Shown here: piece by piece, positions 3,357 through 28,811 of the stretch
Position numbering within the stretch: the stretch's first letter is position 1
Layout of the letters: each line of letters begins with the position of its first letter
Virus record (IMG/VR): IMGVR_UViG_3300014720_000133
Location: 1 to 28,936 of that record
Reading direction: 5' to 3' (one strand)
Source of the DNA: a virus
DNA length: 28,936 bases
Program-made: the position numbers and the translations under genes
Notes under the pieces: model-generated
The model's database searches: none
What the model was told of the DNA's origin: nothing
What the model saw: the letters and a program-made list of their open reading frames with translations, nothing else

Positions 3357-4904
3357 ATGATAATTTTACAGCAAAACACAAATAATCAATTTCCTGCTAC
3401 GGTCTCAATGAATGTGACTATTAGCAATCCTGTTTATTTGTTTGAATTTCAACATAAATTATCAAACGAATTTTGGTATATTATACCATATAAAGTCCCA
3501 ACAGCATATTCAAAACCAAGTTATGACTTGTTTAATATGGCTGTTGACTTCAACACACCTGAGTCATTTACCAATAACACAGCAACATCGGGAAATTTGC
3601 ATTTAATTCCTGGTGAATATTTGGTCAGAGTTTTTCAACAAACTTCAACAAGCAATCTTGACCCCCTCCTTTCACAGGGGGAAATATATCAGATATTAGC
3701 CAAGGTTGACGCAACAGATATAATTTGCACTCCTGAACCTCCTTATGAAGGTGGTTTCGATGATGAATGGATTGTTTATGACGAATGTCAGCCAACTCCT
3801 GTTGTTTCTGTAAGTGCAACTGCCAGAGTAACTCCGAGTCCAACTTCTACGCCAACGGTAACACCCACAAACACACAAACTCCAACCAATACCCCTTCGA
3901 ATACTGCAACCAACACGCCAGTACCTTCACAGACTTCAACTGCTACTCAGACACCTACGAATACTCCAACTAATACTTCAACGCCATCACATACTCCTAC
4001 TCAGACAAATACTCCTACAAACTCAGCGACCGCTACTGCAACCCCCACGGAAACTCCGACAAATACACCAACGAATACAAATACCCCAACTCCATCACCT
4101 ACTTCACCACCTATCGATTGTTCTTGGAGTGGAACAACTTCTTTGTGGGAAAATAATATCAACGATTGGCCAGAATGTAGTAGATTGCCTGAACCTACAC
4201 CTTCTTCTACTCCGACCACGACTCCAAGCCCAACACCTATTCCTGTCACCCCTACTATGACCCCGACAAATACTGAGACACCAACTAACACACCAACGAA
4301 TACATTGACTCCGACTCCGAGTGTGAGTCCTGTACCAATAATTTCGTTCTTGGTAAGTAGTGGAGCTACACAAGGGGATGCTTGTGGTACTGGTGCATAT
4401 TTCTATGTTTACGCTGAGGATTTAGGTAACTGCGCTGGTTGTTTACCATCGACTTGTTGGGCTTGTTTGACAACCGCACAACAAGTTTATTCCGACCCAT
4501 TATTAACTATTCCTGTTGGAGATGGTTATTATATGAATGAAACGCAAACAGGACAATATCAAACTTGGTATATTGTTGGTGGATTCCCACAACCTGCTGG
4601 ATTTGATTCTTGTCCTTTTGGTCCGACTCCCACACAGACTTCGACAATGACAATGACTCCAACCAATACCTCAACACCCACAAACACAATAACTCCGACG
4701 CAAACCCCAAGTGGAACTAATACATTCTGTTCAACATATGTGATGGACCCTGACCCACAAGCTTCTTGGAGTTACAATAGATGTGATGGAACTTTAATTC
4801 AAAGATTTGGGGAAACAACTACTTATACAGAATGTGTAAGAAATGGTACTTTGAATATTCTATCAGGTACTTTGATAATAACAGATTTAGGTCAATGTAC
4901 GTAA
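3357..4904 (+). CDS. Modular virion protein with three Pro/Thr linkers
   Basis: 515 residues. The N-terminal domain (1-145) contains [10 protein letters not shown]-type sequence ([20 protein letters not shown]) and [20 protein letters not shown]. This matches a virion protein I know from many Bacteroidota phages, function unassigned. Pro/Thr/Asn linkers at about 157-251, 280-326 and 422-452 separate three modules. The first is short ([21 protein letters not shown]). The second is Cys-rich (about 328-420) with [18 protein letters not shown]. The third (about 457-515) has YNRCDGT...CVRNGT...LGQC. The modules look like exchangeable exposed domains on the virion surface. The gene follows the LamG-like protein by 22 nt, so both may belong to the same appendage. 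Confidence 0.6.
3825..4109 (+). repeat. Longest Pro/Thr/Asn linker (95 codons)
   Basis: Degenerate tandem of ACN, CCN and AAY codons coding TPT, TNTP and SNTA-type units at residues 157-251 of the 515-residue protein. Shorter relatives in the same gene lie at 4194-4334 and 4620-4712. The reverse strand is also open across parts of it, but that is a by-product of the repeat. Confidence 0.9.
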
Positions 4905-12948: not shown

Positions 12949-12955
12949 TCTATAA

Positions 12956-13014
12956 CCCTCCCAAAAAAGGGGGGGACTAAATAAAAGGAACCCCTCAAAA
13001 AGGGGGGGACTAAA
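12956..13014 (+). repeat. Two repeated A-loop hairpins
   Basis: CCCTCCC-A6-GGGGGGG-ACTAAA (12956-12981) and CCCCTC-A5-GGGGGGG-ACTAAA (12991-13014). Each folds into a 6-7 bp stem with an all-A loop followed by the same ACTAAA. Confidence 0.7.
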
Positions 13015-13271
13015 AACCTTAAAAAGCGTGCTTTGCGGTATAACTTTTTCTCGGTCATCGCAAGAATATCCCCCCCCTTACTCGATACACTTGATTTAAC
13101 CCCCTTTTTAGACCATTTAAGACCACCAAATTATATGGGTGATATGATGAGACCTTTTTTCTTTTTGAGTCCATTAGAAGTCAAATAAATGAGTCTTTAG
13201 ATTCGTGACTACAGGGGGGGGTCAGTGAACACACAACCCCCGAGTGTTATGTACCACCCCAAATATCTAAG

Positions 13272-13363
13272 AAAATCCCCTCGAGCACTACAGGACAGAC
13301 AATGAGTTCCTTTAATTAAAATCCCTCGAGCACTACAAGAAAGACAACACAGTCCCTTATTTT
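13272..13363 (+). repeat. Two-copy 46-bp direct repeat with CTCGAGCACTACA core
   Basis: Copies begin at 13272 and 13318. Both contain CCCTCGAGCACTACA and a diverged tail (GGACAGACAA versus AGAAAGACAA). The core includes a CTCGAG palindrome. Confidence 0.75.
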
Positions 13364-13537
13364 ATCCCCCCCTTTTTTTTTAAGATTTTTTTTTATGTTG
13401 TGTTGATTGTGTGGATTTGGTTGGTTATTATTGTGGTATGGAAGGGGTTTTCATAGGTTGCCTTTCATCTTGTTGAAAAACCAGGCATTGTTGGTTTTGC
13501 TTTTCATACAAATGGGGGGGGTGTTAACCTCCTTGAA

Positions 13538-13570
13538 GGGGGTGAGTTCCTGGTCTCACTCCCTTTTTTT
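13538..13570 (+). terminator. Rho-independent terminator before the late operon
   Basis: GGGGGTGAG (13538-13546) pairs with CTCACTCCC (13555-13563), 9 bp with one wobble, extendable by two A-T pairs, followed by T7. It isolates the late operon from upstream transcripts. Confidence 0.85.
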
Positions 13571-13608: not shown

Positions 13609-14013
13609 ATGGTACGGGAGTTATCGAGGGAGGTTATTGATGTATGTGTATCGAATGGTTTGAATGAGCCGTATTTGATGGGCATTGTTGATAGGTTGAT
13701 ATGTGGGTTATCCAAGGATGAGGATGATATTATTTTGACTTTTGGATTTTCTGAGGGCAAGGAGTTTGTGAGCATTGATATTGGTTATTTGCAGAATATT
13801 TTTGAGGTTGATTATCCCAATTTGAATTATTTTCTGATGAGTTCTGACAGTGGGTTTTACGATATGGTATTGACAAGGGACATTAGTGAGGGGGGATATC
13901 GTGAGTTAATGGATAAGATATTTGTTTATTTGGATTTGCAGTTTGATTTATTGCATTTGGGTGATGGGAAGATATCATTAAGGGATTTTGATGAGAGGTT
14001 AAAGAGGTTATGA
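13609..14013 (+). CDS. Hypothetical protein coupled to the terminase large subunit
   Basis: 134 residues (MVRELSREVIDVCVSNGLNE...). No family recognised; acidic, helical, with no membrane segment. Unusually for this genome, a purine-rich GGAGAAAGGG stretch lies 6 nt before the ATG and could act as a Shine-Dalgarno sequence. Its stop overlaps the terminase start (ATGA), so the two are coupled. Both use a very G-rich coding strand (many TTG, GGG and GTT codons) unlike the genes on either side. It may be a packaging accessory factor; this is inferred only from position. Confidence 0.65.
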   Translation: MVRELSREVIDVCVSNGLNEPYLMGIVDRLICGLSKDEDDIILTFGFSEGKEFVSIDIGYLQNIFEVDYPNLNYFLMSSDSGFYDMVLTRDISEGGYRELMDKIFVYLDLQFDLLHLGDGKISLRDFDERLKRL

Positions 14014-15155
14014 GCATTAAGACCACGGTTGTTTTCGAAAAATTGGTATCGAGCCAAAATAGGTTAAGCGTATTTCAGGGTAGTTCAAGGGCATCGAAGA
14101 CTTATAATATTTTGATATATTGGGTTTATCGGTTGTTGCAGGAGAATGGGAAGATATTGTCCATTGTCAGGAAGACTGGTCCTGCGATGAAGGGTTCCGT
14201 TCTTAGGGATTTGAAGGAGATATTGATTAGTTTTGGTGTTTATGACCCTGAGAATTGGAAGGTTGTTGATGGGGTATATCACATTGGGAATGGTTGCATG
14301 ATTGAGTGGTTTGCTTGTGATGATGAGAGCAAGGTTCGAGGTAGGAGCAGGGATTATTTGTTCATCAACGAAGCCACGGAGGTTAGCTTTGAGGAGTTTC
14401 AGCAGTTGATATTAAGAACAAGGGAGAAGATTGTTATTGATTTCAACCCCTCCCTTATGGAGAGTTATCTGTATGATTTGGAGCAGAGGGAGGATTGTGA
14501 TTATCATATTGTTACGTATAAGGACAATCCGTTTTTGCCAGATGACCAGATTAAGGAAATTGAACGGTTAAAGGATTTGGATGATAACCTTTGGTTGGTT
14601 TTCGGATTGGGGCAGAGGGGAAATCCTGAGACCTTGGTGTTTCCCAAGTTTTTGGAATATGAATCCCTTCCTGTTGGATGTGAGTTTTTGGGTAGGGGAA
14701 TGGACTTTGGCTATCACGACCCAACGACCTTGGTTGAGGTTTATCTCAGGCATGATGAGTTGTATTTGAAGGAGTTGATGTATGCCAAGGGCTTGACGGT
14801 TCCTGATATTGTTTTTAACTTAAATTTTTCCAATATTCCCAAATGGGATTATATTTGGTGTGATAGTGCCGAGCCGATGCTTATTGCCGATTTGAAGAGA
14901 AATGGATTTCTTACCAAGAAGGTGGTCAAGCAATCCATATTGTCAGGGATTGAAAAGATTAAACGACATAAGGTATTTATTCATAAGGATTCACATAATT
15001 TGAAAAAGGAGTTCCAATCTTATTCTTGGAGGAAGGACCCCAACGGAAAGATGATGGATGTCCCTGAGGATAAGAACAACCACGCAATCGATGCGGTTAG
15101 GTATGTGTTGGAGATGATGTTAAATAAACGAAAAACAGCAATTAGGGTTGTATGA
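14010..15155 (+). CDS. terL: Terminase large subunit
   Basis: 381 residues. The ATP-driven packaging motor and headful/cos nuclease. Walker A is GSSRASKT (24-31). Walker B is YLFINE with catalytic Glu121. The nuclease domain shows GMDFGYHDPTT (Asp232), CDSAEP (Asp285) and NNHAIDAVRY (Asp361), the three acidic positions of the RNase H-like fold. This order matches the SPP1/Terminase_3-type large subunits. Length is slightly short but both domains are complete. The start overlaps the upstream gene (ATGA), and its stop overlaps the next start in the same way. The coding strand is strikingly G-rich: bases 14281-14340 contain 22 G and 5 C. Confidence 0.95.
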   Translation: MSIKTTVVFEKLVSSQNRLSVFQGSSRASKTYNILIYWVYRLLQENGKILSIVRKTGPAMKGSVLRDLKEILISFGVYDPENWKVVDGVYHIGNGCMIEWFACDDESKVRGRSRDYLFINEATEVSFEEFQQLILRTREKIVIDFNPSLMESYLYDLEQREDCDYHIVTYKDNPFLPDDQIKEIERLKDLDDNLWLVFGLGQRGNPETLVFPKFLEYESLPVGCEFLGRGMDFGYHDPTTLVEVYLRHDELYLKELMYAKGLTVPDIVFNLNFSNIPKWDYIWCDSAEPMLIADLKRNGFLTKKVVKQSILSGIEKIKRHKVFIHKDSHNLKKEFQSYSWRKDPNGKMMDVPEDKNNHAIDAVRYVLEMMLNKRKTAIRVV

Positions 15156-15814
15156 ACATGCAAATTAAATTGGGGGATAAGTTGGTTGACCTCCCATTGG
15201 AATTCTCTTATTGGCAATGGAATAGAATGAAAGCTGCGGGTGATGACCTATCCCCCCTTTCAATGATATCCATTTGCTCGGGATTGGATAAAAAAGAAAT
15301 AAAGAAAGCGGATTTGTCTCATATTGAAATGGTATCAGAATATCTTGCCACAATTTATTTTAGCGCAAAACCAACCAATGATATTTTTGTTACCTTTTTT
15401 CATAAGGATGTTGAATATGGTCTACAGAAAGATTTTTCAAAACTCAAGTATGGTGCTTGGGTTGACTTGGAGGTCTATTCCTCACAGGATGTTGATAAGA
15501 ATATTCCCAAGATATTGTCTTTGATGTATTACCCAATTAAGGAATGGAAGGGGAAGAAATATATTTTGGAGGAGTATTCTGATGAATTGGTTGAGCATAC
15601 CGCATCAGAGTTTGAAGATATTCCCATGAGAATATGGTGGGGATTTTCAAGTTTTTTTTTGCTTTTCGCCGGCAGATATATCGAAAATATCAGGAGTTCT
15701 TTGACTACGAAGACAAGGATGGAGAAAATGTATCAGAGGGGGAAGAAGATTCTCCCAAAGTTTCTGCAAAAGAGGCTACCGCACGTTTTTACTTTTGGGG
15801 ATTCCAAGTTTTAA
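15152..15814 (+). CDS. Tail assembly chaperone, short (G-like) product
   Basis: 220 residues. It lies upstream of the tape measure gene, where tail assembly chaperones of the lambda gpG/gpGT type sit. Residues 1-170 look like a folded domain (LPLEFSYWQWNRMKAAGDDL, MRIWWGFSSFF). After Phe169 the frame reads through T9 and continues for about 50 residues (AGRYIENIRSSLTTKTRMEK) of low-quality, basic sequence that may be only the out-of-frame reading of the -1 product. The -1 frame opens across the same region and gives a more protein-like C-terminus. The two readings together suggest short and frameshifted forms. Confidence 0.65.
   Translation: MNMQIKLGDKLVDLPLEFSYWQWNRMKAAGDDLSPLSMISICSGLDKKEIKKADLSHIEMVSEYLATIYFSAKPTNDIFVTFFHKDVEYGLQKDFSKLKYGAWVDLEVYSSQDVDKNIPKILSLMYYPIKEWKGKKYILEEYSDELVEHTASEFEDIPMRIWWGFSSFFLLFAGRYIENIRSSLTTKTRMEKMYQRGKKILPKFLQKRLPHVFTFGDSKF
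15655..15661 (+). promoter_or_regulatory. -1 ribosomal frameshift slippery site
   Basis: T TTT TTG in the zero frame, inside a run of nine T (15652-15660). A one-base slip back re-pairs both tRNAs on TTT and joins the upstream chaperone to the downstream -1 frame. A T9 tract could also cause RNA-polymerase slippage or a sequencing length error. Confidence 0.6.
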
Positions 15815-15972
15815 CCAACAAGGATATAACCAAATGGGATAAGGTGTCAAATATGCCCTTATATTTATGTTTGAATCATCTTGCTTCGCACAAGGAAGAG
15901 GTTCTGAAAGAGAATGAACGAATTAGAAAACAAGAACTCGAATGGAAGAATATGTCTCGCTCGCGAGGATAA
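15661..15972 (+). CDS. Tail assembly chaperone, frameshift (GT-like) extension
   Basis: About 104 residues added after the slip, beginning AFRRQIYRKYQEFFDYEDKD and running through KEATARFYFWGFQVLTNKDI to MSRSRG. The frame is open upstream to an ATG at 15634, but the sensible product is a fusion with residues 1-169 of the gene at 15152. The fused protein would be about 273 residues. The extension has the mixed helical, charged character of T domains, which recruit the tape measure protein during tail assembly. It overlaps the next gene's start by 31 nt. Confidence 0.6.
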   Translation, partial: AFRRQIYRKYQEFFDYEDKDGENVSEGEEDSPKVSAKEATARFYFWGFQVLTNKDITKWDKVSNMPLYLCLNHLASHKEEVLKENERIRKQELEWKNMSRSRG

Positions 15973-16778
15973 TTAAATTATTTGAGGATTATGTATCCTC
16001 TGACCCAAGATTGCATTCTTTTGGGTTTGGTGATGTTATTGAGTTCGGATTTAATTTGGTTGACGAATATGGAAACTATGCATTTATGTTTGTCACCCCC
16101 ATTAATTCGGTTTTTGAACTTAACCTTACTCGTTATCAGTTTTCAATTATCTTTGCCGACCGCTTGAACGACGATAGAAGCAACCGCATTCAGGTTATCT
16201 CTGATATGAATTTGGTTGCACGAAGATTTGTCTCACAGATTTATATCAATCAAGGAAACTTGTTTGACTACATGAACATTATCCTTCCAACGGAAAGCAT
16301 GCCGTTTATGGAAAGATTTAATTTTGAGGTTGCAGGAGTTGTCTTGAATCTTCAGATTGAAGTATTCGAAGATATGAATGCTTGTGATTTCTATCCAACC
16401 CCCACACAAACTTCAACCCCCACTTCAACACCATCGGTTACTCCGACTCCCACTTTTACTCCAACATCAAGTTGTCCTGTGACCACTCAGTATTTGGAGG
16501 TCATCCTTCAGAGTTGTCATGCATTCAAGTTGGCTGTATGGAATGATGCAGGATTCACAAGTGCTGCAAATGCATTATGTAATTATGTCATATCAGGGAC
16601 TGCTTATGGAGATATGGGAACGGTTTATTCGGGAACCGAAACAATCTTATCGGGACAACATCAACACAACTTTAATTTGAATCCCGTTCTTCAACCCGGA
16701 GAATGTATTTCATCGTTTGTGGTGCATTCTTATTCAGCGCCATCTTGTGTTTGTCCCGTAAATCTTATCTTACCTTAA
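15942..16778 (+). CDS. Tail/neck protein with Pro/Thr linker and Cys module
   Basis: 278 residues. The N-terminal domain (1-147) includes FGFGDVIEFGFN, the segment FADRLNDDRSNRIQVISDMN and PFMERFNFEVAGVVLNLQIE. It is a family I know from Bacteroidota phages, located between chaperone and neck genes. Residues 152-176 are a Pro/Thr linker, followed by a roughly 100-residue C-terminal module with paired Cys (SCPVTTQYLEVILQSC, APSCVCP). The linker plus module looks like an appended exposed domain, as in the 515- and 713-residue proteins. The start at 15942 lies inside the end of the frameshifted chaperone. Confidence 0.55.
   Translation: MEEYVSLARIIKLFEDYVSSDPRLHSFGFGDVIEFGFNLVDEYGNYAFMFVTPINSVFELNLTRYQFSIIFADRLNDDRSNRIQVISDMNLVARRFVSQIYINQGNLFDYMNIILPTESMPFMERFNFEVAGVVLNLQIEVFEDMNACDFYPTPTQTSTPTSTPSVTPTPTFTPTSSCPVTTQYLEVILQSCHAFKLAVWNDAGFTSAANALCNYVISGTAYGDMGTVYSGTETILSGQHQHNFNLNPVLQPGECISSFVVHSYSAPSCVCPVNLILP
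16395..16469 (+). repeat. Pro/Thr linker sharing a 14-mer with another gene
   Basis: Codes [34 protein letters not shown] at 16440-16453 is identical to 18721-18734 in the 713-residue tail gene, and 12 of these bases recur at 4622-4633. Confidence 0.85.
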
Positions 16779-16786
16779 TTTAAGTT

Positions 16787-17380
16787 ATGGAAGATGAGCT
16801 CTTAAACAGGGTTGGTCAACTTATCCTCAATGAGGTAAAATCTACTTTTTCAGAACTTTATCCTTCGAGGACGTTTGGTGGACAACAAAAACCTATTTCA
16901 GGTCAACTTCCTCCCATTTTTTCAAGCAAAAATGCGACAAGAACTTATGTGAATTCTCTTCGGTACCGAATTGTTACTGATGAGGAGGACCAATCATTTA
17001 TTCAGATATTTTCAACAATCCCTGAAGAAGCTGACTACGGCAAATATATTGAATCAGGGAGAATTCCTGGATTTTGGCCAAACATCAATGCCATAAGAAT
17101 ATGGATGACAGCAAAACAGATAAAACCCCAACCTTTGCTCCAAAAAAATTCAAAGGGTGAACCTGTTTATAAAATACCAACTTTGAAGCAGTTGAATTAT
17201 TTGATATCAAGGTCTATTTTCAGGGAAGGTATTTTTCCATTTCCTTATGTGGATATCACCTATGAACGAATAAGAAAACAGCTTGTAAAAGACCTTGAAC
17301 CGGCAGTTGCCCAAAAGGTAACCAACCTTATCAGAGAGCGAGTTGTATTTATGGTTAACCCCCAAAGACAAACACGATGA
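16787..17380 (+). CDS. Probable tail-completion/neck protein (HK97 gp10-like)
   Basis: 197 residues. The segment YGKYIESGRIPG (84-95) followed by NINAIRIWMTAKQI (99-112) matches the pattern of gp10-like neck proteins, in which a Tyr-x-x-x-Ile-Glu-x-Gly-Arg loop precedes a helix. These proteins join the tail tube to the head. The C-terminal half is basic and helical (ITYERIRKQLVKDLEPAVAQ). Its stop overlaps the start of the next gene (ATGA). The assignment rests on the motif and on the position between chaperone and baseplate genes. Confidence 0.5.
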   Translation: MEDELLNRVGQLILNEVKSTFSELYPSRTFGGQQKPISGQLPPIFSSKNATRTYVNSLRYRIVTDEEDQSFIQIFSTIPEEADYGKYIESGRIPGFWPNINAIRIWMTAKQIKPQPLLQKNSKGEPVYKIPTLKQLNYLISRSIFREGIFPFPYVDITYERIRKQLVKDLEPAVAQKVTNLIRERVVFMVNPQRQTR

Positions 17381-19518
17381 ATGTAAGTATTATACAATCA
17401 CCCGAAGATTTTCAACCCGTTAAAAGTGACGGATTATTTTTTGTGGCTTCGGCCGATACCCAATCGGTTTTTAACTTTCGGTATGTGTTTGAGTTGTATA
17501 TTCAAGGGGTAAAAGTATTCACGGGCAAGTCCACCCCAAATCCTGAAGGATTGGGAGTTTTGGATGTGAGCAAAGTTATGGAAACTTATCTAACGGGTTC
17601 TCCCGTTGCATTGGATGAAAATACTGCCATATTTTGGCATACGACATTTCCTTTTTCAAGACCATATTCAAATCAAGTATTTCTCTATTATATCCAAGTG
17701 GGTGAGGAACATTCCAACACACAGACGGGTAGGGTCGAACAATATTCAGGTATAGGAAGCAATTTAGGTTTTCCTGGTGTACCTTCGTTGGATTTTAGAA
17801 CATATTTGGGGACGTTGCCAGTGAATTACATTGCAAACATCCAAGATTTTGACTATGGTCCGTTTGTTTTATCAGGAAATCCAACAAACTTTCAGCAAGG
17901 TTTGTTTTTAACAAACTCACCCCGTCAAAGAGATTTGAATGAGGATGATTGGTTTACCCTTTCATTTACCAATTATAGGATAAACAACCAAGATGTTTAT
18001 TCTGAGCCGTATTATGCAAAAATTGACTTCTACGACAATATCGGAGCATTTATAACCGCATATACCTTTACGAACATTTGGACCAACGGAGGGGGTCCTT
18101 TATCGTCTTGTACGAACAATTATCCTGTTCTTATTCCCCCCTCTTTGGATGCCACGGATTTCAACATCTTAAACTTGGGTGTTGGACCAAGGAATTTGCC
18201 GTCAATACCTAACGGAACATATTATTATAACGTTGGTTTGTATGGTGTGAGAAATAACATTTTGGTTACTCCCACACCCACTTCTTCGGTAACCCCAACA
18301 CCCTCATTCACACCTTCACCAACTCCATCATCACCTGCGTGTGATGAGTATTTGGTTGAAAACAATGCTGGTTTCACCGTTACCGAGACCTTCCCTGATT
18401 GTGATGGTAATTCAGTTACTTTGACTTTGCTCACAGGACAAACTGCTTTGGTTTGTGTAAGCACCGTTCCAATTTCACAATTCACTTGGACACTTCAAGG
18501 GGTTTGTCCTCCTGCGTGTATCTGTTTGGATGTTACTTTTACCAATACGGTTGGAAGAAGTGAAATTCTTTACTACAAAGATTGTAATGAAGTTCTTATT
18601 GGACTGACCATTGCACCATTTGGTGTTTATAACACTTGTATTTGTAATTTCTTCTCTTGGACGGGCTCAACATTCACCATTGTCAATAACGGACCATGTT
18701 CCTTTCCAACGCCAACAGCAACTCCGACTCCCACGGCAACACCAGTTCCTGGAATCAATGCTTTGCTTCGTGGTTGTTGCGACCCATCGCAGCAAATCTA
18801 TGCAAGAATACCTGGTCGTGCTGTTTTTGGAAACTCCTTTGCTTATAATGGGGAATGTTTCAACTATGTGCAATCTGCATCATTCTTTGATATTGATTTG
18901 ACTGATGGTCAAACATATTTGGAATGTCAATCTTGTATTATTGATAATCCATGTGGTCCTGAACAAGATATTTTGCCTGTAAGACCTGATATTGAACCTA
19001 TTATAAATGTTCCAAGTTTGGCTGGTGAGGGTGCTTGTGTGGCATATCAACCATGTTCAGAGGTCTTTACCTTCAAATTGGTTTGTGACGAAGGTGCACA
19101 ATTTGGTCAAAGACAAATTATGTTCCGTAATAGGTATGGGGTATATGACTACTATCGTTTTGTAAGGGGTAAGGCTGAAGGTTTGGACATTGAAAGACAA
19201 ACTTACCAACAATACAATCAAACTTGGGGACAAGCAAACATCTTGAAGACAACATATTCGAGAGGAACTTCCAACTGGCAAACTCGTATTACTGAGACCC
19301 ATGTAATCAACTCAGGATTTATATCTCAAGCTGAGATGGTTTATCTACAGGAACTCTATACATCAGATGATGTTTATGAGGTAAAACCTGATGGAACTTT
19401 ATTCCCAATCAATGTGGTGAATACTGAATTCATCATTCGTAATAAAGGAAATAAAAATTTGGTGAACTTGGAGCTTACCTATATTTACTCCAACAACATC
19501 AGAATGTTAGGATTATAA
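17377..19518 (+). CDS. Distal tail protein with inserted Cys modules
   Basis: 713 residues. The N-terminal region (1-290) begins MNVSIIQSPEDFQPVKSDGL and contains VLDVSKVMETYL. The C-terminal region (about 540-713) has FRNRYGVYDYYRFVRGKAEG, INSGFISQAEMVYLQELYTS and NLELTYIYSNNIRMLG. Together they look like a conserved Bacteroidota-phage baseplate protein. Between them lie two Pro/Thr linkers (297-322 and 443-459) and two related Cys modules (DCDGNSVTLTLLTGQTALVC; DCNEVLIGLTIAPFGVYNTC). The modules seem inserted into the parent protein and are likely exposed. It is probably next to the tail tip, ahead of the 872-residue protein and the tape measure. Confidence 0.6.
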   Translation: MNVSIIQSPEDFQPVKSDGLFFVASADTQSVFNFRYVFELYIQGVKVFTGKSTPNPEGLGVLDVSKVMETYLTGSPVALDENTAIFWHTTFPFSRPYSNQVFLYYIQVGEEHSNTQTGRVEQYSGIGSNLGFPGVPSLDFRTYLGTLPVNYIANIQDFDYGPFVLSGNPTNFQQGLFLTNSPRQRDLNEDDWFTLSFTNYRINNQDVYSEPYYAKIDFYDNIGAFITAYTFTNIWTNGGGPLSSCTNNYPVLIPPSLDATDFNILNLGVGPRNLPSIPNGTYYYNVGLYGVRNNILVTPTPTSSVTPTPSFTPSPTPSSPACDEYLVENNAGFTVTETFPDCDGNSVTLTLLTGQTALVCVSTVPISQFTWTLQGVCPPACICLDVTFTNTVGRSEILYYKDCNEVLIGLTIAPFGVYNTCICNFFSWTGSTFTIVNNGPCSFPTPTATPTPTATPVPGINALLRGCCDPSQQIYARIPGRAVFGNSFAYNGECFNYVQSASFFDIDLTDGQTYLECQSCIIDNPCGPEQDILPVRPDIEPIINVPSLAGEGACVAYQPCSEVFTFKLVCDEGAQFGQRQIMFRNRYGVYDYYRFVRGKAEGLDIERQTYQQYNQTWGQANILKTTYSRGTSNWQTRITETHVINSGFISQAEMVYLQELYTSDDVYEVKPDGTLFPINVVNTEFIIRNKGNKNLVNLELTYIYSNNIRMLGL
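18265..18342 (+). repeat. Pro/Thr linker 1 of the 713-residue tail protein
   Basis: Codes TPTPTSSVTPTPSFTPSPTP. It precedes the first Cys module. A shorter linker (18703-18753, FPTPTATPTPTATPVPG) follows the second. Confidence 0.85.
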
Positions 19519-22141: not shown

Positions 22142-25100
22142 ATGGCAGAAAAAATTACATTAGATATAATCTTAAATAATAGAGGAGCAATAACCTCTTT
22201 AGAAGATTTAAGACAAGCAGTAAAACTTGCCAATGCTGAGCTCAGTACATTGGGTGAAGGTGCAAAAAACTATGGGGAATTATCAAGTTTTGTTTCCGCA
22301 GGTAATACTGAAATTCTCAGACAGCAAAAATTATTAAAAGGTCTTACCTCTGAAGAAATCGCTGGTGCATATGCACGTATTGGTGGTGGTATTTCTTCAA
22401 CATTTGCTGCAGCATCAGCTGCTTTAGCTACCTTTGGTGTAGAAAACGAATCAGTATTAAAAGCCGCTGCGGATGCACAAAATTTATTAACAATTGCCAT
22501 ATCAACTCGGCAAATTCAAGAAGGTATTCTCTCTGCAAGACAATTGTCCAATTTGGTTGCAGAAAGAGCAAGATTGGCTCTTTCAAGATTGAATAAAACT
22601 GCAACTGATGCTGAGACAATATCTGAAGTTGCAAATTCGGCGGCTTTGGATAAAAACACCTCAGCTGAAGTAAAAAATGCTGCAGCAACAGGAGCTAAAA
22701 CCGTAGCAACCGAAGGAGAAACAGTTGCAACTGTTGCTCAAACAGGTGCTCAAGGGATTTTGAACACAGTGACAACTGCGGGAACGAATATAATGAAAGC
22801 ATTTTATGCAACAGTTGCCGCTAATCCATTCGGTGCAATCATTACGGCTATTGGACTTTTGGTTACAGGTGTTATTGTACTTAAAAATGTATTGCAGGAT
22901 ACAGACAAAGCTTATAAAGCTTTTAACAATGCAGTTGATGAAAGCAGTGGACAAATTGCTGTAGAAATAAGACAACTTGATGCATTGGTTGCTATTGTAA
23001 AAGATAACAATAGAAGTCAGGCAGATAGATTATCTGCATATGAAGAATTACAAAAAGTTTTACCTGGTATAAAAGATTTGACAATAGACCAAGCTCTTGC
23101 AGAGGAAAAGCTTACCCAAGCTTATGACCTTCAAATTAAAGTTTTGAAATCCAAAGCAAAGTTGGATGCCGCACAACAAATATATTCTAAAGCATTTTCA
23201 GAGATACTCAAAGTTCAAAGAAAAGACATTGGGGATTACGCTTTCACATGGCAGTCTTTGTTGAGTGCTCTTACGCAAGGTACTTTTGCTTTCGGTGCTT
23301 TGCAGGCAAAATTTGAAGATTTAAGAGAAGCTACTGATGCATTATCAGATGCAGATAAACTTCTCAACCAATTTACTATAGAACATAATAATGACATAAT
23401 TGCTCAAAATAATTTCATAAGAGAAAATACAGAAGGAAAAGTAGATAATACTAGAGCAACGAATGAACAAGTTATTGCCAATAATAGATTAAGAGATGCT
23501 TATGCAAACTTGAGCAAATTTTTGAAAGAAACTTTAGATTTTTACAAAGAATTGGGAAAGGTTGTAGAAGTTGAAGACAAATTGCCAGAGTTTATAGAAA
23601 AAGTTAACGGGGCTTTAAGGGAAAGAAATAAGTTGGTAAAACAAGGTGGTAACGCTTTTGAAGAAGGATTAGTTAAAATTGGATTTCAAACTAAAGCTTT
23701 AGATTCAATGATGTTGGGGGCTATGAGAATGGCCAATGGTTTTCTCAATGCCAACCTTAAGACAACAGATAGTCTACTTAATCTTTCAGATGTTTTTGGA
23801 AAAGCTATTGAAGATGATTATGAATCCTTATTTTTGTCGGTCGGTAATCGAACAGAGACCTTTGACAAATACATCCGCGGGGTAAGAGAAGATTATCTTA
23901 AATTGTTTGAGGAAGGAAAAATCACTCCTGAGGCTTTAGGGAGTGTAGATGCACTTATCCAAAATTTAACAAGTATGAATAGACTTGTTAGAGAAGGTGG
24001 GGTTTCATTGTCAGAAACTTTCAATAAAGAAAATCTTAACGAATATTTAGAAGCTCAAAGAGAGGTATCAGTCGCTGAAGGGAAAATTGGTTTTGAAATA
24101 GACAAAACTACCGGTAAAGTTATTCAAGCAACTGCTGATAGAAAAAATTATAGTAAAAACCTTCAAACAATTGCAGTTTTTGAATCTGAAATATACAAAA
24201 AAACCGTTGATGGTTTAGAAGATATAAGAAGAGCAAGTAATGAAAACTTCAAAGCAACTGTTATACGAGCTCAAGAAGAAAAAAGAATAACTTCTGACCA
24301 AGCACAAACCCTACTCTCCCAAGCGGATGTACTATCAAAAAGTGAAATTGAACGTACCAATTTAATTAATAGAATTGCAGAACAAAGAGTTGAGTCCGTC
24401 AGAAAACAAGTCACTGGTACTCAGAAAGAACTTGATAGGATTAGAAAATATAATTTTGAATTCACCCGTGATATTGAAAATGCTGAAGAGATTTCTGCTG
24501 CGGCAATAACCACTCTTATAGAAAAAAATACAGGAGATTTCTTAGAGGCGATTGAAAGAAGGGCAAGATTTGCTATTACTAACTCTCAAAAAATTGCTCA
24601 AGCAGATAGATTATTGCAAGCCCGTTTATTAGATTCGACAAAATTTACAGAAGAGGAAAAAATTAGAATCTATGAGGCAACTTATCAATACCAAAAAGAA
24701 ATTAGTGACAAAAGTAGAAAAGATATCACAAAAAATATTGAAGAGTTCTTTAGAATTGCTCAACAGGCACTTAATGCATATCAAGAATATGTCGATAGAG
24801 CTCGGGAGCTTGCCATAGAAAGAATCAATATTGAGGAAACTGAAAAACTACGTCAATTAGAATTTGCATATTCTCAGGGGTTGGTATTAGAGAAAACATA
24901 TCAACAGAAAAGACTCGAATTGATAGAAGAATATACTGCTCGAAGAAATGCTGTTGAGAAGAAAAGTAGAATCAAACAACTTCAATTAGATAGACTTCAA
25001 GCAATTGCAAATGTCGCTGTAGGTGTAACCAAATCAATTGAACAAGGTGGTATCTTCGGACTTATTACAGGTGCTATTGTTGCCGCAGCAGGTGCTGCAG

Positions 25101-25477
25101 AAATAAGTATTATTTCTCAACAAATTAGTTTAGCCCAATCACTTAAAAAAGGTGGTTGGATTAAAGCTCAAGAAGGTTTGATGGTACAAGGACCAAGTCA
25201 TGAAAATGGCGGTGTAAAATTCCAAAATGGAGGTTACGAATTAGAAGGTGGAGAAGCTGTTATCAACAGGGTTTCAGCAAGAAATTATCAAGGTTTACTC
25301 TCCCAAATCAATCAGAGTGGTGGTGGAAGACCATTGGTATCGAGTTTTGACGACTCAAGGATTGTAGATGCAATTGCAAAACAGAGAATGGAACCCATCA
25401 GAGCTTATGTAATTGAACAAGATATAACAAGAAAACAGGCAATTAACAAAAAGTTGGACCAGTTGTCTCGCTTTTAA
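22142..25477 (+). CDS. Tape measure protein
   Basis: 1111 residues. Sets tail length and may help DNA cross the cell envelope. It is the longest gene, Gln/Lys/Glu-rich, with long coiled-coil stretches. Hydrophobic segments lie at about 228-250 (NPFGAIITAIGLLVTGVIVL) and 970-998 (GIFGLITGAIVAAAGAAEIS). The C-terminus carries GPSHENGGVKFQNGGYELEG followed by GEAVINRVSARNYQGLLSQI, a signature I know from tape measure proteins of Bacteroidota phages. Two frameshift-linked chaperone frames lie upstream, as expected. It begins one base after the previous stop. Confidence 0.9.
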   Translation: MAEKITLDIILNNRGAITSLEDLRQAVKLANAELSTLGEGAKNYGELSSFVSAGNTEILRQQKLLKGLTSEEIAGAYARIGGGISSTFAAASAALATFGVENESVLKAAADAQNLLTIAISTRQIQEGILSARQLSNLVAERARLALSRLNKTATDAETISEVANSAALDKNTSAEVKNAAATGAKTVATEGETVATVAQTGAQGILNTVTTAGTNIMKAFYATVAANPFGAIITAIGLLVTGVIVLKNVLQDTDKAYKAFNNAVDESSGQIAVEIRQLDALVAIVKDNNRSQADRLSAYEELQKVLPGIKDLTIDQALAEEKLTQAYDLQIKVLKSKAKLDAAQQIYSKAFSEILKVQRKDIGDYAFTWQSLLSALTQGTFAFGALQAKFEDLREATDALSDADKLLNQFTIEHNNDIIAQNNFIRENTEGKVDNTRATNEQVIANNRLRDAYANLSKFLKETLDFYKELGKVVEVEDKLPEFIEKVNGALRERNKLVKQGGNAFEEGLVKIGFQTKALDSMMLGAMRMANGFLNANLKTTDSLLNLSDVFGKAIEDDYESLFLSVGNRTETFDKYIRGVREDYLKLFEEGKITPEALGSVDALIQNLTSMNRLVREGGVSLSETFNKENLNEYLEAQREVSVAEGKIGFEIDKTTGKVIQATADRKNYSKNLQTIAVFESEIYKKTVDGLEDIRRASNENFKATVIRAQEEKRITSDQAQTLLSQADVLSKSEIERTNLINRIAEQRVESVRKQVTGTQKELDRIRKYNFEFTRDIENAEEISAAAITTLIEKNTGDFLEAIERRARFAITNSQKIAQADRLLQARLLDSTKFTEEEKIRIYEATYQYQKEISDKSRKDITKNIEEFFRIAQQALNAYQEYVDRARELAIERINIEETEKLRQLEFAYSQGLVLEKTYQQKRLELIEEYTARRNAVEKKSRIKQLQLDRLQAIANVAVGVTKSIEQGGIFGLITGAIVAAAGAAEISIISQQISLAQSLKKGGWIKAQEGLMVQGPSHENGGVKFQNGGYELEGGEAVINRVSARNYQGLLSQINQSGGGRPLVSSFDDSRIVDAIAKQRMEPIRAYVIEQDITRKQAINKKLDQLSRF

Positions 25478-25935: not shown

Positions 25936-26185
25936 TTGGATATTGGTAACCATTACGGGTATAAGTGGATTCTTTTTAGGAATGAGAAAAACTCAAAAAG
26001 AAACTGACTCTATATCAATTCAGAATGTTGCATCCACACTTAATGTTTATCAAGATATCATTGCGGATTTGAAAGTTCAAATCAAAGAAATGAAAGAAAA
26101 GATGGAACAGATGGATAAGACAATCCACAAACTCCAAGAAGAAAATAAAAAACTTAATGCAATGATTAAGAAAAATGGACAATAA
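25922..26185 (+). CDS. Small membrane-anchored coiled-coil protein
   Basis: 87 residues. A membrane segment (IIDWILVTITGISGFFLGM, about 3-21) is followed by a long charged coiled coil (DLKVQIKEMKEKMEQMDKTI and on to LQEENKKLNAMI). The layout resembles inner-membrane spanins and some holin-like accessory proteins. It is the only lysis-type candidate in the late operon. It overlaps both neighbours (14 nt and 11 nt), so it is tightly coupled to the head genes. Many Bacteroidota phages carry such a gene here; its role is not established to my knowledge. Confidence 0.6.
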   Translation: MEIIDWILVTITGISGFFLGMRKTQKETDSISIQNVASTLNVYQDIIADLKVQIKEMKEKMEQMDKTIHKLQEENKKLNAMIKKNGQ

Positions 26186-28811
26186 TTTAATGGATGGAGT
26201 ACCAGTATTTGAAACAATTGAAGAGGCTATCGCACAAGCACAAAAACTTGGATGTAAGGGTTATCATCCACATCAACATGAAGGAAGAGAAGTTTATATG
26301 CCATGCGAAGACCATGACCAAAGCTTAGACATTATAGATTCGAAGGGGCAAGATATTGAGGATGTCTTGGAAGATAACGTCATTGTAGGAGTTAAGATTG
26401 TAAATGACCCTGAAGAAGTGAGCAAACGTTATATGAAACGTTTAGCTAATTCAAATCTTAGTGGTCAAAAATTTTATAGAATTGTCTCCAACCCGAATGA
26501 GCCATCTCTGTTGGATAGTGCAACCAAAAGATACAGATACATTTATGCTCCTGGTGAAGGAGCACCCGATTTGATAGATACTTCAAGAAGCTTCTGCACA
26601 AGAATGATGGGTGGAGTACAAAAGGTGTATCGTTACGAGGACATATTAGATTTATCCGCTCAACTTGAAGTTGAAGATACTGCACGTAAAATTATACCAC
26701 GTCCAAAAAACTCAGGACCCGTTGATATATGGGTTTGGAAAGGTGGCGCAGGATGTCAACACCGCTTCATTGAATTAGTTTTAGAACCAAGAGGATACAT
26801 TCCAAATAACGCACAAAATGCTCAAAGAATTGCGGAATTTGAGTCTCCGGCAGGTGGTAACACAGGACAGATTAATCTACCCCCCAACTATGCAAGCGGA
26901 TTTGCTAAAGTTGGTGAAAGGGGTGGTATTGTCAAAAGTGAAAAAGCTCCCAAGTCAGATACACCAAATAGAAATCCCAAAGGAGAGGGTACCGCAAAAG
27001 GTGATGCTCGTTCAACAAGAGGTGCTGAGGTGAGTGCTCGTGTTGAAAAGATATTAGAAGATAAGGTAAAAGATTTCAACGACAGATATAAAGAAAAATT
27101 GGGTTATGGAGCAAACAAAGGTGCTTTGAAATCCGTTTATCAAAGGGGGGTTGGAGCTTATAACACTTCACATTCACCTGAAGTGAAGTCTGCAGAACAA
27201 TGGGCGTTAGCAAGAGTTAACGCATTTCTTTATCTTTTGAGAAATGGTAGACCTGAGAATAGCAAGTATGTCAACGATAATGACTTACTACCTAAAGACC
27301 ATCCGAAATATTCGAAAGAAGAATTTGATTACAATGTTTCATCACTATCCCCGTATGCGGTAACTTCAGGAGATACCGAAATAGAGGAGGTATTCATCAA
27401 CAAAAAACCTTACGAAAGAAAAGATGCATATCTTGCTCGTTGTATGGAAGCTCTTGTTGGTGAGTTTCCTGATTCCAAACAAAGATATGCGGTTTGCAAT
27501 TCAGATTGGGAAAGCTTCAATGCGATGGAATTGGACATTTATGGTTATCCAACTGAACATTTTTATATTTGCCCTGGTGCTAAAGCAACATTCATGGAGA
27601 TTATGAGTGTTGACAATGATGAAGATACTATTGGAATGATAAGGTCTGCAGCTCTTATTGCTGATAAAATTTTCGATATTGAAGAAGATGCCATCGAAGA
27701 TGGAAAAGCATCACCAAAAGATTTGGAATTAGCTAAATTATTGGTTGATGACTATAAGGATTTGATTGGGGAAATTGCAAAGATACAAGGAAAGGAATAT
27801 AATGTTGATTACATGGATGGTCACATTGATACAATATCCAAATTCGTAGTTTCAGAAATGTTCAGAAAAAATTTGGATAGGGGCATTGTTGTCGACATCG
27901 AGGGAGCTCTCATTAAAGATGGTCAACCTATTATGAAGACCATTGAATATCTTGAGGAAATGAGTGACCGATATAAGATTATTTTAATAAGTGGTCGTCC
28001 TGAAAGCAAATTACAAGAAACAATTGATGAACTTGAAGAATATGGTATCGAATATGATGAGATATACCTTCAAGATTTATCTGAAGACACAACAGGAGAC
28101 GTTGCAATGAGATTCAAGACCAACAAGGTCAAGAAACTAATGCAATCTGGTTTCAACATCTCAGAGATGATAAGTGCTGACTCAGGTACTTTGGCTGCTT
28201 TAGAACAATTGGGTATTGGTCTATACTATCCTGAAGAGTTGGATGTTTTATTTAGACCCACAGCCTTTGCAAAAGGCAAAGCCTTATTTGAAACTCAAGA
28301 GGAAGCTTTCGAGTATTCAATGTTTTGTGGATGTGGGGGATATGTTTCTGATTATATGTTCAAAGGACAGAAATTGTTTATGTCCTGTGGAGATTATAAA
28401 AAGGAGCCACAAGCTTTCTCAATGGAAGAAGATAAACGAATTATTTATGCACCTGTGATGGTGCCTGGAAAAATAATTCCACGAATGGATGAATTTGGAC
28501 AAAAATATTTTGTGACCTTCACTCCCGAAGTTATTGAGAAAATGGCTTACAAATACATGAAAGAAAAGAGGACTGACCAAGTCAACTATGAACATTCTGA
28601 CCAAAAGTTTAAGGATGTTTATATGGTTGAGAGTTGGGTAATCAATTCTGATAATGATAAGGCTTATAACTTTTTTGAGAAAGACGACTTGCCCATTGGT
28701 ACTTGGATGGCAGCATTCAAGGTAGATAGTGATGAAGTTTGGAACAATTATGTTAAAGCCAACAAAGTGAAAGGAGTTTCCTTGCAAGGAAATTTTCTAT
28801 ACACAAACTAA
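26175..28811 (+). CDS. Head polyprotein with HAD-like domain and XkdF-like protease
   Basis: 878 residues. Domains in order: (1) FETIEEA...GCKGYHPHQH...YMPCED module (11-47); (2) FYRIVSN... with SFCTRMM and GGAGCQHRFIELVLEPRGYI (about 95-220); (3) a Gly/Ser/Lys linker; (4) DUF5824-like block with LKSVYQRGVGAYNTSHSPEV and WALARVNAFLYLLRNGRP; (5) DAYLARCMEALVGEFPDSKQ, then CPGAKATFMEIMS and IRSAALIADKIFDIEEDAIE; (6) HAD-like region (568-700) with DIEGA at 574-578, SGR at 606-608 and ADSG at 668-671; (7) a second copy of module 1 (704-742); (8) prohead protease with NYEHSD (His807), VESW (Glu819) and GVSLQG (Ser869). It lies just ahead of the scaffold and capsid genes. Confidence 0.75.
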   Translation: MDNNLMDGVPVFETIEEAIAQAQKLGCKGYHPHQHEGREVYMPCEDHDQSLDIIDSKGQDIEDVLEDNVIVGVKIVNDPEEVSKRYMKRLANSNLSGQKFYRIVSNPNEPSLLDSATKRYRYIYAPGEGAPDLIDTSRSFCTRMMGGVQKVYRYEDILDLSAQLEVEDTARKIIPRPKNSGPVDIWVWKGGAGCQHRFIELVLEPRGYIPNNAQNAQRIAEFESPAGGNTGQINLPPNYASGFAKVGERGGIVKSEKAPKSDTPNRNPKGEGTAKGDARSTRGAEVSARVEKILEDKVKDFNDRYKEKLGYGANKGALKSVYQRGVGAYNTSHSPEVKSAEQWALARVNAFLYLLRNGRPENSKYVNDNDLLPKDHPKYSKEEFDYNVSSLSPYAVTSGDTEIEEVFINKKPYERKDAYLARCMEALVGEFPDSKQRYAVCNSDWESFNAMELDIYGYPTEHFYICPGAKATFMEIMSVDNDEDTIGMIRSAALIADKIFDIEEDAIEDGKASPKDLELAKLLVDDYKDLIGEIAKIQGKEYNVDYMDGHIDTISKFVVSEMFRKNLDRGIVVDIEGALIKDGQPIMKTIEYLEEMSDRYKIILISGRPESKLQETIDELEEYGIEYDEIYLQDLSEDTTGDVAMRFKTNKVKKLMQSGFNISEMISADSGTLAALEQLGIGLYYPEELDVLFRPTAFAKGKALFETQEEAFEYSMFCGCGGYVSDYMFKGQKLFMSCGDYKKEPQAFSMEEDKRIIYAPVMVPGKIIPRMDEFGQKYFVTFTPEVIEKMAYKYMKEKRTDQVNYEHSDQKFKDVYMVESWVINSDNDKAYNFFEKDDLPIGTWMAAFKVDSDEVWNNYVKANKVKGVSLQGNFLYTN

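Follow-up and report, generated by a model that had tools for sequence, protein, structure and literature searches.

The window, meaning the whole stretch of DNA analysed here, corresponds to a linear IMG/VR virus record of 28,936 bases (IMGVR_UViG_3300014720_000133). The gene under study, called the slip gene below, begins at an ATG at 15152 that shares 4 nt with the stop codon of the terminase large subunit gene. The features of the locus are as follows.

14010–15155, + strand: terminase large subunit gene (terL), the conserved upstream neighbour.
15152–15814, + strand: zero-frame product of 220 aa, consisting of a chaperone-like N-terminal part and a 50-residue zero-frame tail, based on the ORF, an AlphaFold model and relatives.
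15652–15660, + strand: putative T9 slip site in the codon context AGT TTT TTT TTG, a run conserved in relatives.
15652–15972, + strand: −1 frame extension, entered solely through a change of frame (its ORF is open from 15616), based on the ORF and relatives.
15661–15814, + strand: dual-coding overlap, read both as the zero-frame tail and in the −1 frame, marked by lowered divergence at fourfold sites.
15942–16778, + strand: next gene downstream, beginning before the −1 ORF has ended, from the ORF list.
22142–25477, + strand: likely tape measure protein of the tail, encoded by the fifth gene after the slip gene and matched by phrog_9959 and phrog_25337.

Re-reading of the ORFs confirmed the original prediction that the zero frame beginning at 15152 and a −1 frame meet at the T9 run (15652–15660). 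The slip gene lies in the late operon, upstream of the likely tape measure gene and on the same strand. The prediction had also implied a place beside that gene, which is not supported in the window, where four genes (starts 15942, 16787, 17377 and 19522) lie between the two.

Several other features of the window were observed. The intergenic region 12950–13570 contains clustered G7–G8, C7–C8 and T9 runs, and a CCCTCGAGCACTACA-like unit is repeated there at 13276 and 13322. The proteins encoded at 15942–16778, 17377–19518 and 3357–4904 share Thr/Pro-rich linkers or match phrog_15511. An 878-aa protein encoded at 26175–28811, with stretches matching portal, polynucleotide kinase and head maturation protease profiles, is possibly a fusion.

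Relatives of the N-terminal part, of the zero-frame tail and of the −1 part were all found by tblastn, and loci were assembled into three sets. For set 1 the query against viral contigs was the protein of the adjacent terL gene, without selection for the run; it gave 80 loci from 96 relatives. Four of these (L015, L017, L019 and L020) stop short of the run and were left out; with the window counted in, the run is T9 or T10 and is followed by a −1 frame in all 77 readable loci. Set 2 was obtained with an alignment of 12 N-terminal parts and gave 80 loci, 78 of them new, from at least 570 relatives, and T9, T10 or T12 was found in 78/78. The window, L060 and L009 proteins had no tblastn match in cultured phages, which were reached solely by a BFVD structure search, with E-values of 1.1e-8 for Nonlabens phage P12024S and 4.6e-5 for Flavobacterium phage 6H. 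Set 3, seeded by P12024S, comprises 63 loci (63 used, counting P12024S itself), with T9 in 62 and T10 in 1. The Nonlabens phages P12024S and P12024L are a cultured pair having the same gene and a T9 run. Locus L225 (T9) was read for the run alone and kept out of the other counts; L010 is incomplete and was left out, and L094, L134 and L145, also incomplete, were left out of the tail tests.

Over all sets, 218 of 218 readable loci have T9 (122), T10 (95) or T12 (1), although these correspond to 161 distinct sequences, some set 2 loci being the same contigs as loci of set 1, and the counts are not independent since the loci are related. The relation of the two frames is −1 in every readable locus, and the run occurs in all three codon phases. 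Profile comparison links sets 1 and 3 both for the zero-frame products (E 7.5e-32) and for the −1 parts (E 3.8e-20). Within 3 kb on each side of the site in 91 representatives (459,788 nt), there are 10 T runs of at least nine, compared with 91/91 at the site itself; T or A runs of this length are rare, so the run at the site exceeds chance. A protein scan of genome contigs found no bacterial genome carrying the slip gene. Twelve stretches were found with a 19-base pattern, two of which contain the slip gene, L236 (binned as Euryarchaeota) and L242 (binned as Bacteroidetes); both are short contigs and could possibly be misbinned phage.

A comparison of synonymous-change rates in the overlap among relatives, pointed to in the original prediction as a check, found constraint in both frames. 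In the overlap, the fourfold third positions of −1 codons are the second positions of zero-frame codons. Fourfold differences in group A were 0.60 in the N-terminal part, 0.34 in the overlap and 0.66 past the zero-frame stop; in group C the corresponding values were 0.57, 0.29 and 0.67, and in group B they were 0.58 and 0.37, with too few sites past the zero-frame stop. Divergence in the overlap (0.29–0.37) is thus about half that in the single-coding parts of the same genes (0.57–0.67), and the constraint stops at the zero-frame stop. For pairs matched in divergence (80–90% identity) the values are 0.11 in the overlap versus 0.46 and 0.47 in the single-coding parts. The openness of the zero frame under synonymous shuffling is mildly informative, with a median of 0.04, values below 0.05 in 42/78 and a value of 1.0 for the window itself. 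Both tails are under selection and, judged by this pattern of substitution, both are real protein. The −1 frame had been described as more protein-like than the zero-frame tail; this was not borne out, and neither tail is the better protein, because the zero-frame tail is constrained too.

These results also bear on the suggestion, made in the original prediction, that a sequencing or assembly error in the homopolymer has broken one ordinary gene in two. Homopolymers are prone to such errors, and distant relatives do have a single frame. However, the −1 relation holds in 218/218 loci at run lengths of 9, 10 and 12, run length is equal in 143 of 143 pairs with at least 90% identity, and conservation and constraint are seen in the zero-frame tail as well. 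Because of the constraint in the overlap, the constant −1 relation and the equal-length pairs, homopolymer error is excluded, with a residual probability that we regard as negligible.

A second way to dispense with a change of frame would be for the −1 frame to be a separate, translationally coupled gene using its own start. The −1 ORF of the window does offer an ATG before the run, at 15634; an ATG, GTG or TTG is within reach in 50 of the 91 representatives; and in P12024S, where the layout is terL, a 175-aa gene, T9 and then the −1 ORF, the annotation shows the latter as a separate 55-aa gene. However, only 11/91 representatives have an ATG anywhere from the opening of the −1 ORF to 12 codons beyond the run, and in 12/91 a stop codon right before the run makes an upstream start impossible. 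Moreover, the annotated 55-aa gene begins downstream of conserved −1 residues, and distant relatives have both parts in one chain. Internal initiation, like a separate downstream gene, was rejected, and we consider it highly improbable. The 55-aa annotation itself, P12024S_39 (L162 23663–23830), corresponds to the end of the −1 frame extension and is probably no gene by itself.

The distant relatives were reached by searching from 6H, which gave the Duneviridae phages FPSV-F7, laban6-1 and Ingeline_1, and also Microcystis phage Mea-Yong924-1 and Polaribacter phage Leef_1. In these phages there is one continuous ORF, the first part of which aligns to the zero-frame product (hhalign 97.4%, E 1.5e-11). 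The match of its last part to the −1 domain (hhalign 65%, E 5.9e-5; hmmsearch E 2.5e-4 for Mea-Yong alone) is suggestive, not certain. At the junction between the two parts, the distant flavobacterial and other single-frame relatives have T runs of 4–6, at most 6. The existence of these one-frame relatives with T4–T6 junctions points to a single-frame counterpart of the long form and to an association of the nine-T run with the two-frame layout. Relatives with one continuous frame had been named in the original prediction as evidence that would count against it; they do occur, but in distant families alone and with runs of no more than T6, and the split is not thereby shown to be an error.

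The deposited 6H copy of the gene (L161 10044–10939) is interrupted, while the near-identical FPSV-F7 has one continuous frame of 293 aa. The interruption probably reflects an error in the sequence or a broken gene copy, and 6H was set aside as a candidate third arrangement. In gut Bacteroides phages (BT2, SJC10 and BC679P5), a gene of ∼210–230 aa in a single frame lies just after or near terL (L230 13169–13792, L229 1836–2474 and L082 2338–3030). No homology of this gene to the slip gene was detectable, its C-terminus resembling the −1 domain by eye alone; it is possibly a third version of the slip gene.

The change of frame could take place either when the RNA is copied or when it is translated. 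A −1 ribosomal frameshift at T TTT TTT or T TTT TTG within the run, as in lambda G/GT, would give the same two proteins. Because every nine-T run contains an in-phase heptamer, ribosomal frameshifting is possible at all loci; T TTT TTT is in phase in 218/218, though this is a matter of arithmetic for any run of at least nine in any phase. The length of the run is harder to reconcile with the ribosome. The T TTT TTT heptamer would require 7 T in phase 2, 8 in phase 1 and 9 in phase 0, and thus leaves room for runs below nine in two phases at least, whereas the floor among the 91 representatives is nine T in each phase (51 runs in phase 2, 34 in phase 1 and 6 in phase 0). Run length changes at least 14 times on the tree, and phase plus length at least 20 times, never to fewer than nine. 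Phase-2 runs retain both tandem heptamers, though one would suffice.

The composition of the run is equally strict. TTC makes up 36% of the Phe codons just upstream, while the first nine bases of the run never include a C, and in phase-2 runs the codon whose third base opens the run ends in T in 51/51 cases, against a usual mean share of 0.36 (these sequences are related and not independent). Preference for TTT over TTC within the run could also suit slippage of the tRNA. Some of the run follows from amino-acid constraints in both frames, but Phe-Phe alone does not force nine T, because the single-frame relatives have runs of 4–6. The +1 frame, which would be entered by a one-base deletion, is shut within 4 codons after the run in 69 of 91 representatives (controls: 0.33 upstream, 0.51 in the overlap), and this early closure may limit the products of one-base deletions.

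No stabilised RNA structure was found beside the run among the 91 representatives, the mean z being −0.06 both upstream and downstream in a calculation restricted to structures other than pseudoknots, and an Rfam search for an RNA stimulator gave one meaningless sub-threshold match. Although the missing stimulator counts against the ribosome, frameshifting of the lambda type is not known to need strong RNA structure. The lambda-type tail chaperones treated in the excerpted parts of a review shift on the ribosome (PMC5009743). The same excerpts state that runs of nine A or T slip; in part of the text of PMC3711429 the threshold for transcriptional slippage is given as T runs longer than 8, and in part of that of PMC1088944 nine is the usual run length that genomes avoid. 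The nine-T floor in every phase, the missing RNA stimulator, the invariant wobble T's and the fit to these published thresholds lead us to prefer RNA-polymerase slippage as the probable mechanism, and to regard −1 ribosomal frameshifting as the less likely of the two, though a serious candidate. Transcriptional slippage had been offered in the original prediction as an alternative; it fits the data better than ribosomal frameshifting and is the probable, not the certain, mechanism.

The identity of the product was approached through profiles and structures. Phage_TAC_7 matched 5 of 45 members (with E up to 1), the best match having E 0.0011 and 19.4 bits, below the curated cut-off of 25, and phrog_166, a 'tail protein' family, matched 10 of 45. 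Both cover the same N-terminal residues, 6–76 of L009. Likeness to Phage_TAC_7 (PF10109; E, 41 or 14) and to phrog_166 is thus weak and N-terminal, and the slip-gene protein differs in having further domains. The AlphaFold model of the zero-frame product has a mean pLDDT of 90.7, including the tail, a long helix, to about residue 205; the model of the −1 domain is helical and less certain (pLDDT 73.5). A Foldseek comparison with solved structures gave no match at E ≤ 0.001 (the best VIA Z was 2.7), and the structure search with the −1 domain gave nothing significant.

On this evidence, the slip gene is likely to encode a tail assembly chaperone of the G/GT kind, though this is unproven because the resemblance to TAC_7 and to the 'tail protein' family lies below curated cut-offs. 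It is also conceivable, if rather unlikely, that a virion or neck protein with two products employs the same recoding. The position of the gene directly after terL and five genes from the tape measure gene would suit such a protein, as would the weak TAC profile matches and the solved folds without a match. However, the TAC_7 and phrog_166 matches fall on the same N-terminal region, and in Cellulophaga phage Ingeline_1 two genes separate the relative of the slip gene from a TP901-type tape measure gene downstream of it.

Thus, the anatomy of the locus, its conservation and the dual constraint support the original prediction of a programmed −1 frame change of the gpG/gpGT kind at the T9 run of a probable tail assembly chaperone gene. 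We propose the following model, to which as a whole we assign a probability of roughly 0.58. The slip gene would be a G/GT-like tail assembly chaperone gene yielding two proteins. Unslipped messages would give the 220-aa short form. RNA polymerase would slip at T9, producing a fraction of messages with one extra U, in which normal translation would pass into the −1 frame and, stopping at 15972, give a long form whose C-terminal domain differs. If the two forms act as lambda gpG and gpGT do, the tape measure protein may be coated by the short form and tail tube subunits recruited by the long one.

In lambda the slip site is a mixed heptamer such as GGGAAAG. The slip gene resembles lambda gpG/gpGT in having one start, a short form and a −1-frame extended form, and in preceding the tape measure gene within the late tail region. 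Unlike lambda, it has a T9–T10 site rather than a mixed heptamer, and its dual-coding overlap is long (46–84 codons in 78 representatives); it also differs from the usual G/GT arrangement in lying four genes from the tape measure gene, adjacency being usual but not defining. Among known cases of slippage, the run of Shigella mxiE is also a T9. The bare A/T run of at least nine, shifting the frame and setting the ratio of products, is shared with mxiE, spa13 and dnaX, but here the gene is a structural-assembly gene of a dsDNA phage and slippage is predicted from sequence. Excerpts of PMC5009743 and PMC1088944 describe transcriptional slippage in Shigella mxiE and spa13 and at an A9 run in Thermus dnaX, and those of PMC5009743 present lambda gpG/gpGT as the model of two-product tail chaperones. 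Such chaperones are already well known; what is new is a bare T9–T10 run as the conserved signal, probably a transcriptional one, together with a long dual-coding overlap. A search of the open PMC literature, a scope outside which most subscription papers fall, turned up no tail chaperone said to use transcriptional slippage.

PHROGs keeps the zero-frame product (phrog_32199), the −1 part (phrog_38404) and the single-frame version of the slip gene (phrog_25418) as three families, all of 'unknown function'; the present analysis unites them as one recoded gene. It extends the rule of two-product tail chaperones to a large, mostly uncultured phage group. On balance, we lean towards the view that in this group, whose cultured members infect Flavobacteriaceae, the ratio of short to long chaperone is set by programmed RNA-polymerase slippage at a bare T9–T10 run, with overlapping C-termini. 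Nonlabens phage P12024S provides a cultured model for telling transcriptional from ribosomal recoding. If the model is true, a transcriptional slip takes the place of the ribosomal frameshift of lambda-like phages, and different phages would meet the same functional demand at a different molecular step.
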